Origin: a virus
DNA: 64,000 nucleotides
Virus record (IMG/VR): IMGVR_UViG_3300045999_008996
Coordinates: 1-64,000 of that record
Direction: 5' to 3' (one strand)
A program made the translations under genes and the position numbers. Under the pieces are notes generated by a model. It worked only from the letters and a program-made list of their open reading frames with translations, was not told the origin of the DNA and ran no database searches. Shown in pieces: positions 44,721 to 57,670 of this stretch (positions within the stretch are counted from its first letter, which is position 1; the number at the start of each line of letters is the position of its first letter).

Positions 44721-44861
44721 TCAGAAATCAATCACATTCAGAGTCCCCATAGTATCACCTTCCTCTGCAACATTATCACTGACGATTGCATCCAGAATCG
44801 AAAGAATCTCATCACCAGTGTTACCTTGTGCCAGCATCGAAAGCATCACGGTCTTGGACAT
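44721..44861 (-). CDS. small protein, 46 aa (paralog of 44956-45093)
   Basis: MSKTVMLSMLAQGNTGDEIL at the start. 27 of the first 29 residues equal those of the neighbouring 45-aa protein, while the C-termini are unrelated. The leader before the ATG is also duplicated (CACTTTTCTTCG versus CACTTTTCTTCT). Small helical proteins with this start are common in cyanophages; function unknown. Confidence 0.75.
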   Translation of the reverse strand: MSKTVMLSMLAQGNTGDEILSILDAIVSDNVAEEGDTMGTLNVIDF

Positions 44862-44955: not shown

Positions 44956-45093
44956 TCAGTTAGTTGCAAAGACCTCAGCGCAACTATCAATACCCTCCTG
45001 CTCAATGTCGGAGACGATAACATCGAGGATGGACAGAATCTCATCACCAGTGTTACCTTGTGCCAGCATGGAGAGGATAACGGTCTTGGACAT
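44956..45093 (-). CDS. small protein, 45 aa (paralog of 44721-44861)
   Basis: MSKTVILSMLAQGNTGDEIL at the start, then a different tail (IEQEGIDSCAEVFATN). It is the first of a tandem duplicated pair. It belongs to the cluster headed by the 36-bp repeat at 45463. Confidence 0.75.
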   Translation of the reverse strand: MSKTVILSMLAQGNTGDEILSILDVIVSDIEQEGIDSCAEVFATN

Positions 45094-45462: not shown

Positions 45463-45498
45463 ACTACTAAGACACTTTCAAGGTGAGTAACTTTAATG
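45463..45498 (-). repeat. 36-bp repeat, copy 1
   Basis: Variable loop CTTG. It fills the gap between the HNH endonuclease stop (TAA lies inside the repeat) and the YETWN gene; the nearest ATG touches the repeat, the likely true start is 48 bp further. Confidence 0.9.
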
Positions 45499-45915
45499 GA
45501 TGCGGTCCTGAATATCATTGAGGACCGTAGATAAGACTTCCACACTATCCTCACCGTTCTCTTCTAACTGTTGCATAACGTCTTGCAGTTGGGGTAGAAT
45601 AGCAGTGGTAATCTGTGGCACTCTGATAATACTCATTTCGCCCAGATGCTTATACTTTAGAGGTCTTCCTCCAGCAATAGTTTTGGGACGAAACTTACTG
45701 TCTTTTTTAGACTTTTCAATGTGGCATTTGTTACATAAAAGTTGGCACTTTGATAACTCTTCTAACAGAACTTCCTTAGGTTTACTATAACCTGCAGCAA
45801 TATTGAATGACTTTGTAGAAGGGTCAATATGGTCAAACTCTAATGCTTCTGTGCAACCACATTCTACACACTTTCCACCCAACTTTTCAATTAGAATTTC
45901 CCTTAATAAGTTCAT
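45493..45915 (-). CDS. HNH homing endonuclease
   Basis: A 140-residue free-standing HNH nuclease: zinc pairs Cys16/Cys19 and Cys61/Cys64, HNH core EFDHIDPSTK (His29) and LLCNKCHIEKS (His65). The C-terminal half (RPLKYKHLGEMS onwards) probably binds DNA. Such genes are selfish elements in T4-like genomes. A late promoter nested inside a long inverted repeat stands just before the ATG (see 45918-45979). Confidence 0.88.
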   Translation of the reverse strand: MNLLREILIEKLGGKCVECGCTEALEFDHIDPSTKSFNIAAGYSKPKEVLLEELSKCQLLCNKCHIEKSKKDSKFRPKTIAGGRPLKYKHLGEMSIIRVPQITTAILPQLQDVMQQLEENGEDSVEVLSTVLNDIQDRIH

Positions 45916-45917
45916 AG

Positions 45918-45979
45918 GTATTTTGATAACTTAATACGTCGTTATTTATAGGTTTTTTGAGGTATTACGTTATCAAAAC
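45918..45979 (-). promoter_or_regulatory. late promoter nested in a hairpin (HNH gene)
   Basis: Minus strand: upstream arm GTTTTGATAACGTAATACC (45979-45961), loop with TATAAATA (45950-45943), downstream arm ending 3 bp before the ATG region. The arms pair 10 bp, one mismatch, 6 bp. Read-through RNA would hide the translation start; RNA begun at the late promoter lacks the first arm. This is the T4 I-TevI/soc arrangement. Confidence 0.75.
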
Positions 45980-46013
45980 TTAAACGCCTTATTTGGTATA
46001 AATTGCTACCAAA

Positions 46014-46187
46014 TTACCATCTATCGGGTGTACTTAGGTCTTCTACGTAAGCATCACACTTCTCTGCAGGTTCCAACTTGAAGAGTTTCTCCCAGTCAAT
46101 TTGATGTGGGTCGAAGTCAGGAAACGCAGAGATATCTAGAGTGATGCGATAACGAACCTTCTGTGCCTGAGTGTATGCTACTGACAT
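46014..46187 (-). CDS. small conserved cyanophage protein, 57 aa
   Basis: MSVAYTQAQKVRYRITLDIS; ends LSTPDRW. A clear AGGAG lies 9 bp before the ATG, and a near-perfect early promoter is 28 bp upstream of the start. Function unknown; an immediate-early role is suggested by the promoter. Confidence 0.8.
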   Translation of the reverse strand: MSVAYTQAQKVRYRITLDISAFPDFDPHQIDWEKLFKLEPAEKCDAYVEDLSTPDRW

Positions 46188-46214: not shown

Positions 46215-46243
46215 ACTATAAGATGCCTGGGCGAAAATGTCAA
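46215..46243 (-). promoter_or_regulatory. sigma70-type early promoter
   Basis: Minus strand: TTGACA (46238-46243), 17-bp spacer, TATAGT (46215-46220), followed by a leader with AGGAG for the 57-aa gene. One of the best host-type promoters in the window. Confidence 0.85.
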
Positions 46244-46314
46244 TGGTCTGGGGGTATTTAGGCGGTCCTGGTGGATTTAAGCAGGGGAATTGTGAGGATT
46301 TTGTGACCCTGTGG

Positions 46315-46344
46315 TTGACAAAAGTGCTGTTCTTATGTTATGCT
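46315..46344 (+). promoter_or_regulatory. plus-strand early-type promoter
   Basis: Plus strand: TTGACA (46315-46320), 17-18 bp, TTATGCT (46338-46344). The -10 surround TTATGTTATGCTCGG nearly equals that of the minus-strand promoter at 44673. It points against all genes of the window. Confidence 0.6.
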
Positions 46345-46570
46345 CGGTAAGAAGACAAGACCTCGACACGTTTATAATGTATCAGCACACATTCTCTGGC
46401 ACATTATAAGATAATAGAGACGATTAAAGGCACTTAATTGATACGAATTCATATCATTATCACACATTAATAACAATAATTATCAGGCATTTAATTCGAA
46501 CGTTTATATTTAAATTGATATTTTTAATTGATTTTATTGTTTTTTTAACGTTATTTTGGCATAAAAGCAT
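46345..46570. other. AT-rich non-coding stretch, candidate RNA or origin
   Basis: The 419 bp from 46188 to 46606 is the longest gap without a gene. The left part holds two divergent promoters. The rest is very AT-rich, has no frame longer than about 10 codons after the plus promoter, contains TATAAT-like strings and ends at a strong hairpin. It may encode a plus-strand RNA of about 230-250 nt or be a replication/regulatory site. No known RNA family recognised. Confidence 0.4.
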
Positions 46571-46595
46571 AAAAAAAGAGGGTAGAAGTACCCTC
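46571..46595 (-). terminator. rho-independent terminator
   Basis: Minus strand: stem GAGGGTA/TACCCTC with a 4-base loop (46578-46595) and then seven T. It ends the cluster 46607-47725. On the plus strand the stem is followed only by a weak U-rich run. Confidence 0.9.
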
Positions 46596-46606
46596 TCTAT
46601 CTTATA

Positions 46607-56914: not shown

Positions 56915-57583
56915 TTAGATGTCATCATTGTTCAATTCTTCTACCAATATAATATCTTTATGTTTTTTTCTTTTACCTTTTGCAACCTGATAGATTAGTG
57001 AATCATTATAATTATTTTGTTTACACCAATTATGTAAACCAGTCATCTCTAGTGTTCTACCATCTTCAAATGTAATGATCCAGGTTTTCCATAATCTATT
57101 TGTTTTATGCGTTTCTGTTGGTTTTCTTTGTTTTAATCTGTGTTTTTTCATTTCCTCTGGATTATCCTTTAGTTTTTTCCATCTTTCCGCGTAATATTTT
57201 GAAATCCTTTCTTTGTTTTTTTTGTAGTAATCAGATGCTTTCTTTTTCAATTCATCTTCACTATATTTTTTCGTCACTTTAGATAAATGTCTCTTCTGCT
57301 CTTCAGTCATAACTCTACCTGAAGATCCATCACCACCATCAGTTTTATTATGGAGAATACCAGTTCCTAAATCTTTTCTTCCAAAGACAGCAATCATATA
57401 GATTTCGTGCTTAAATGCTTCTTCTTCAGTAAGATTTTGCTTAAGAAATATTATTTTAGATTTATCTTTAGGAGATTTGGTGTCATTTTTTCTCCTTCTA
57501 TATGCTCGGTTTCCTTTACCTTTACCAATGTAGTAAGGAGTTCTATCCTCACGCAGATAAGCGTAGGTATAATAGTTATTCAT
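56915..57583 (-). CDS. GIY-YIG homing endonuclease
   Basis: A 222-residue Seg-like nuclease: YTYAYLRED (GIY position), YYIGKGKGNRAY (YIG with the catalytic Arg region), HEIYMIAVFG with the metal-binding Glu, then Lys-rich DNA-binding helices and a C-terminal motif that recalls NUMOD-type DNA binding. The Met at 57583 is preferred to 57604 because the late promoter would start RNA at about 57601. More AT-rich than its neighbours, as for a mobile gene. Confidence 0.88.
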   Translation of the reverse strand: MNNYYTYAYLREDRTPYYIGKGKGNRAYRRRKNDTKSPKDKSKIIFLKQNLTEEEAFKHEIYMIAVFGRKDLGTGILHNKTDGGDGSSGRVMTEEQKRHLSKVTKKYSEDELKKKASDYYKKNKERISKYYAERWKKLKDNPEEMKKHRLKQRKPTETHKTNRLWKTWIITFEDGRTLEMTGLHNWCKQNNYNDSLIYQVAKGKRKKHKDIILVEELNNDDI

Positions 57584-57589
57584 TCTTGT

Positions 57590-57670
57590 CTTAAAGAGTC
57601 GCATTTATATTTATATAATAAGAGGGACATTTCTGCCCCTTTTCATTTGCTTTTAGATGCGACTCTTAAG
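57590..57670 (-). promoter_or_regulatory. late promoter nested in a hairpin (GIY-YIG gene)
   Basis: Minus strand: arm CTTAAGAGTCGCAT (57670-57657), then a small hairpin (AGGGGCA/TGTCCCT), TATAAATA (57615-57608), then the pairing arm ATGCGACTCTTTAAG (57604-57590) just before the start. Fourteen pairs with one bulged base. Same plan as at the HNH gene. Confidence 0.75.

Follow-up and report, generated by a model that had tools for sequence, protein, structure and literature searches.

The free-standing HNH endonuclease gene of a cyanophage genome was found to be preceded by a hairpin that adjoins its start codon and carries a late promoter motif in the loop, and the best-supported explanation, which is probably correct, is a T4-type translational timing switch: RNA read through from upstream would be locked, RNA begun at the late promoter would be open, and a resident hairpin would have been captured by the HNH cassette. 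This early-locked, late-open behaviour had been proposed in a sequence-only reading of the locus, and it is now best supported because of covariation between the arms, an upstream sigma-70 promoter without an intervening terminator, the presence of gp55 and a class-wide tendency among endonuclease genes. Moreover, as judged from the relatives compared, the hairpin is not an invention of the HNH gene but a regulatory element that came with a resident short gene, whose product persists as the C-terminal tail in the HNH protein.

Structure of the hairpin and access to the start codon

The window, that is, the whole stretch of DNA analysed, comprised the first 64 kb of a virus record of 222,563 bp. 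T4-type core genes near those of Synechococcus phage S-SM2 (gp23, gp43, gp45, regA and gp55) were found in the record, as was a psbD-like frame running from 155972 (by eye). In particular, the late sigma factor gp55 is encoded in this genome at 217947-218426, with 80% identity to the gp55 of S-SM2. The features considered in the window were the following:

45493..45915, minus strand: HNH endonuclease gene, 140 aa, without a Shine-Dalgarno sequence (phrog_4234, PF01844)
45496..45666, minus strand: C-terminal tail of the HNH protein (residues 84-140), homologue of the resident short gene in HNH-less phages
45921..45940, minus strand: hairpin arm 2, directly 5′ of the start codon
45943..45950, minus strand: late (gp55-type) promoter motif TATAAATA in the hairpin loop, predicted RNA start near 45936
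45959..45978, minus strand: hairpin arm 1 (5′ arm, coding strand), only in RNA begun upstream
45991..46014, minus strand: small 8-bp hairpin right after the stop codon of the 57-aa gene, without a T run, in a subset of relatives
46014..46187, minus strand: 57-aa gene (phrog_12516) with Shine-Dalgarno AGGAG, first in the read-through RNA
46215..46243, minus strand: sigma-70-type promoter TTGACA-17-TATAGT, 11/12 consensus, likely source of the read-through RNA
46255..46261, minus strand: CTAAATA (context CCTAAATACCCCC), a motif resembling a late promoter, 5′ of the 57-aa gene
57594..57667, minus strand: second example, perfect 11-bp outer arms AAGAGTCGCAT / ATGCGACTCTT around a terminator-like hairpin and TATAAATA (57608-57615)

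The 140-aa HNH frame, whose ATG lies at 45915, matched phrog_4234 (E 6e-22) and, above the cut-off, PF01844. Elsewhere in the window, two tandem near-duplicate small genes (MSKTVxLSMLAQGNTGDEILSILD...) were observed at 44721-44861 and 44956-45093 (minus strand).

The HNH leader reads AGTTTTGATAACGTAATACCTCAAAAAACCTATAAATAACGACGTATTAAGTTATCAAAATACCTATG on the minus strand. In their extended form the hairpin arms are 20 nt each, with 18 complementary positions and a loop of 18 nt, while the continuous stem comprises 17 bp with one mismatch (TTTTGATAAC-G-TAATAC / GTATTA-A-GTTATCAAAA). The inverted repeat of 10+6 bp that the sequence-only reading had described around TATAAATA, with the second arm beside the ATG, was recovered exactly, the gap to the ATG being 5 nt. 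Only 12 inverted repeats of the whole genome were at or above the threshold, and this one ranked third among them; its stem was also joint best among the 113 late-motif sites. The folded leader had a z of -2.75 (2 of 200 shuffles equally stable), and no match for it was found in Rfam. Furthermore, a stable stem over the translation start region in RNA started upstream was indicated by both fold and covariation: opening this region was computed to cost 16.5 kcal/mol in the read-through RNA vs. 6.3 ± 1.6 kcal/mol when the upstream sequence was shuffled, with none of 60 shuffles as high. In the predicted late RNA, which lacks arm 1, the stem is impossible, the fold was ordinary (z -0.14) and the cost was 5.0 kcal/mol, in agreement with the earlier claim that RNA from the late promoter cannot fold over the start. 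The companion claim, that the read-through fold hides the start, stood with regard to this cost and to the covariation, but the stem covers no Shine-Dalgarno sequence, unlike in I-TevI, and occludes instead the region just 5′ of the AUG. The hairpin was therefore classed as a variant that would work like a T4-type lock. No Shine-Dalgarno at normal spacing was found in the focal leaders, and its absence from the late leader counts against the timing switch, as the late RNA may be translated poorly.

As regards transcription, the late motif published for cyanophages is NATAAATA (PMC2984593), and a late promoter predicted from its motif lies between the arms; RNA begun there would lack arm 1. The sigma-70-type promoter before the 57-aa gene was one of the two best within 6 kb, and most of the approximately 25 relatives retained both of its hexamers, with a variable spacer. 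No terminator-like sites were found between this promoter and the HNH gene, so that, from the sequence, a read-through RNA would proceed uninterrupted. In addition, nearly all relatives had a late-like motif, [AC]TAAATAC, immediately before the sigma-70 promoter, and CTAAATA, which many of them use in the loop, is found in front of other genes of this genome as well. Since the motif at 46261 lies upstream of the hairpin, some late RNA would keep the whole hairpin, which weakens a strict early-late reading, while the inner promoter would still give lock-free RNA. Beyond these promoters, the stretch 46240-46600 of the window is AT-rich, with few frames, a plus-strand promoter-like site (TTGACA-18-TATGCT, 46315) and, at 46575-46598, a hairpin that resembles a terminator on both strands, and is a candidate for a small RNA.

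Under the proposed timing switch, transcription from the sigma-70 promoter (46243-46215) would produce a read-through RNA with both arms, in which the stem beside the start codon would bar ribosomes from the HNH frame. Once gp55-dependent late transcription is on, RNA begun at about 45936 would lack arm 1, the stem would not form and the HNH protein would be translated. The HNH cassette, being joined to the resident short gene behind the hairpin, would thus fall under the resident lock.

Relatives with and without the HNH cassette

In a scan of viral contigs, the HNH protein was matched over its full length at 15 loci (63-84% identity) and by its C-terminal part only (residues 76-140 at most) at 36 loci, where the matching residues formed a separate short gene (MRPLKYKNLG...) that had no match among named phage records. 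The stem was present in 10/10 distinct HNH-carrying leaders, with compensatory changes, and a homologous hairpin was found directly 5′ of the short gene's start codon in each of the 35 HNH-less loci whose leader could be read, where the stem was 14-17 bp long, usually perfect, and touched or entered the AUG. Nearly all leaders of both groups had the late motif in the loop, although in some relatives it differed from NATAAATA, being CTAAATA, or TATATAA or TATAATT in L004, L007 and L012. Among the 10 distinct HNH-carrying leaders, 88% of the cells were paired, and both sides had changed in 11 cells, which belong to 6 pairs. For the 16 distinct HNH-less leaders, pairing reached 99.6%, with 14 doubly changed complementary cells vs. 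one unpaired cell, and 13 of 17 pairs were invariant. The covariation exceeded 500 of 500 shuffles in each set, and also all register slides. The computed lock was modest in the HNH-carrying relatives L004, L005, L010 and L012 (4 to 12 of 60 shuffles equally strong), and this, like the deviating loop motifs, counts against the timing switch.

The 15 HNH-carrying and 35 HNH-less loci, which share the same hairpin and gene, differed by a block that starts after the arm (CAAAA, followed by TACCTATGAAC...) and extends to the RPLKYK codons of the resident gene, whose start codon it replaces, so that the two frames are fused. We infer that an HNH cassette was placed between the resident hairpin and the resident gene and fused in frame to the latter, gain being the direction assumed. 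In the phylogeny of the tail, HNH-carrying loci had a scattered distribution, with seven changes by parsimony and at least two forced by well-supported branches, in a tree built on a 57-residue tail that is too weak to separate gain from loss. Such a scattered presence at a fixed site would be expected of a mobile cassette, and repeated loss could also produce it. The hairpin belongs to the gene 3′ of it, because L041 and L046 keep hairpin and short gene together despite a different upstream gene. Moreover, no late motif at any tested start and no similar hairpin were seen in distant HNH relatives that lack the tail domain (L053-L073), and therefore the hairpin goes with the short gene. In one contig (L013, 3001-3402), the HNH part was joined to a different tail (GGRPKNYTFLGTTERMRVPYV...), with the same kind of hairpin 5′ of it.

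A more tentative, and rather doubtful, extension is that the HNH endonuclease targets the resident late-promoter hairpin, with an insertion point precisely between this hairpin and the start codon. Each successful homing event would then yield a ready-made early lock, and arms and promoter together would act as a homing region and an RNA switch, and possibly also as an operator for self-repression. If this were true, cyanophage homing endonucleases in general would depend on locked late leaders.

Late-motif genes across the genome

For the read-through and late RNAs of every late-motif gene, we calculated how much energy is needed to open the start region. In this genome, the median extra cost in the read-through RNA was 7.0 kcal/mol for 10 endonuclease-like genes compared to 1.8 kcal/mol for 49 other late-motif genes (p = 7e-4). 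In this and the other class tests, the endonuclease labels were given from protein matches, tblastn and record annotation, partly from our own reading of HNH or GIY-YIG motifs and after the ranking had been seen, and hence not blind. Start access in the late RNAs was alike in the two groups. Shuffled upstream sequence was beaten by 6/10 endonuclease genes and 7/49 others (Fisher p 0.005), the lock effect thus not being significant in four of the ten; these four, and the seven high-scoring others, count against the timing switch. Similar differences were obtained for the isolate S-SRM01, with medians of 6.6 for 14 clear endonuclease genes and 1.1 for 50 others (p = 0.0016), the former falling to 4.6 when all 18 nuclease genes were taken (p 0.005). 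Overall, the homing-endonuclease genes of this genome and of S-SRM01, together with 61 GIY-YIG leaders (see below), tend as a class to show a much greater loss of access to the start in read-through RNA than the remaining late genes do.

Among GIY-YIG relatives, the late motif was found in 61 of 63 distinct leaders, and 55 of these 61 beat shuffled upstream sequence. Pairing of at least 8 bp across the late promoter occurred in 84% of these leaders vs. 6.5% with arms swapped between leaders, and the arms comprised 45 different sequences. A terminator-like hairpin was often nested within the outer arms among these relatives (L106-L185, by eye), and the window element at 57594..57667 precedes a GIY-YIG gene starting at 57583 (minus strand).

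Some other late-motif sites were also observed. Late-motif hairpins lie at the starts of homing-endonuclease-like genes at 158375-158412 (minus strand), where a T run follows and the structure could also be a terminator, and at 179091-179131 (minus strand), where the ATG is inside arm 2. The uvsW helicase gene, which is not an endonuclease, has a late motif and a stem reaching into its start codon both here (220407, minus strand) and in S-SRM01 (139790, plus strand), and late-only locking of uvsW may be conserved.

Alternative explanations and known systems

The arms could also work at the DNA level, as a dyad operator that surrounds the late promoter. Either the HNH protein, in autorepression like that of I-TevI, or the product of the resident short gene would bind it, so that transcription and not translation would be controlled. 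The mostly invariant arms of the HNH-less leaders would suit such an operator, the HNH-less leader is a likely homing region, and I-TevI represses its own late promoter via an operator resembling its homing site (PMC2988022). However, the arm positions that do vary among HNH-less leaders change on both sides and stay complementary, with the single exception noted above, further doubly changed cells occur in the HNH-carrying set, where a binding site would not need pairing, and the other endonuclease leaders keep pairing across their many arm sequences, which makes an operator unlikely. Control of the late RNA by a second, local hairpin (AGGUAUU with AAUACCU just 5′ of the AUG), or by a very short upstream frame with a stop codon that overlaps the start as AUGA, appears highly improbable. 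Pairing of the local hairpin is possible in 91% of the cells, but it was rejected for showing zero covariation despite this good pairing; overlapping frames are visible in many leaders, but the AUG of the mini-frame is absent from the window leader. In the L018-L052 leaders, arm 2 often contains a frame of four to six codons (AUG CUA UCA AAA CUA UGA), and its stop overlaps the start codon as AUGA, a possible coupled start.

Hairpins at gene ends are used by T4-like phages, and the present one lies about 35 nt past the stop codon of the 57-aa gene, so it might end or protect that mRNA, as a terminator, processing site or 3′ stabiliser, without a role at the HNH start. This is quite improbable, given that the hairpin abuts the start codon at a fixed distance, contains the late motif and precedes the short gene in L041 and L046 behind another upstream gene. 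An intrinsic terminator was rejected in particular, as a T run is found on neither strand and the hairpin is absent from the list of terminators. Finally, a functionless palindrome arising from low complexity or shared descent could be suspected from the AT-richness of the region and from some leaders being near-copies, but the covariation above all shuffles and register slides, the third rank in the genome and the class-wide association make it extremely improbable, and it is already disfavoured.

The mechanism favoured here, the translational timing switch, is already known. A read-through fold over the start with a late promoter between the arms was described for T4 I-TevI of the td intron (PMC2988022, PMC3014915), and the same promoter-hairpin layout for I-TevI, I-TevII, I-TevIII, segB and the HNH gene mobE of Aeh1 (PMC2988022), while a hairpin lock early, opened by a late promoter, occurs in T4 e, soc and other T4 genes (PMC3014915). 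The comparison with I-TevI, soc and e made from the sequence was therefore right, although the same trick was also known from free-standing endonucleases (segB and the HNH gene mobE). As in I-TevI, the read-through RNA would fold over the start and an inner late promoter would free it; unlike I-TevI, which is intron-encoded and whose hairpin hides a consensus Shine-Dalgarno, the present gene is free-standing and without a Shine-Dalgarno, and its hairpin is also present in endonuclease-less alleles. Aeh1 mobE and T4 segB are likewise free-standing, but they belong to another phage group, and PMC2988022 gives no sign that their hairpins were acquired from resident genes. T4 e and soc, as non-endonuclease genes with an early lock, have their analogue in the HNH-less short gene, although the proteins are unrelated and the locked gene here is an endonuclease landing site. 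The seg43 leader of Aeromonas phage 25 has a stable hairpin just upstream of the ribosome site without covering it (PMC2988022), which the GIY-YIG leaders resemble, whereas the HNH stem is nearer the start codon and has the late promoter in its loop. F-CphI of cyanophage S-PM2 is also a free-standing homing endonuclease of a cyanomyovirus, but it is of the EndoVII type, and the regulation discussed for it is an antisense RNA, with no start hairpin (PMC5931967). No report of such a lock in cyanophages was found in the literature searched, mostly outside subscription journals, which agrees with the earlier statement that none was known for a cyanophage free-standing HNH gene. What is new is the cyanophage class, the captured resident hairpin, the missing Shine-Dalgarno and the class-wide occurrence.

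A regulatory trick of T4 and Aeromonas phages is thus extended to phages of cyanobacteria, on the basis of compensatory changes in dozens of sequences and a class-wide test. A selfish nuclease would be held to late expression by joining an already locked resident gene, and why endonucleases are delayed becomes testable in cyanophage isolates, such as S-SRM01 with its many genes of this kind.
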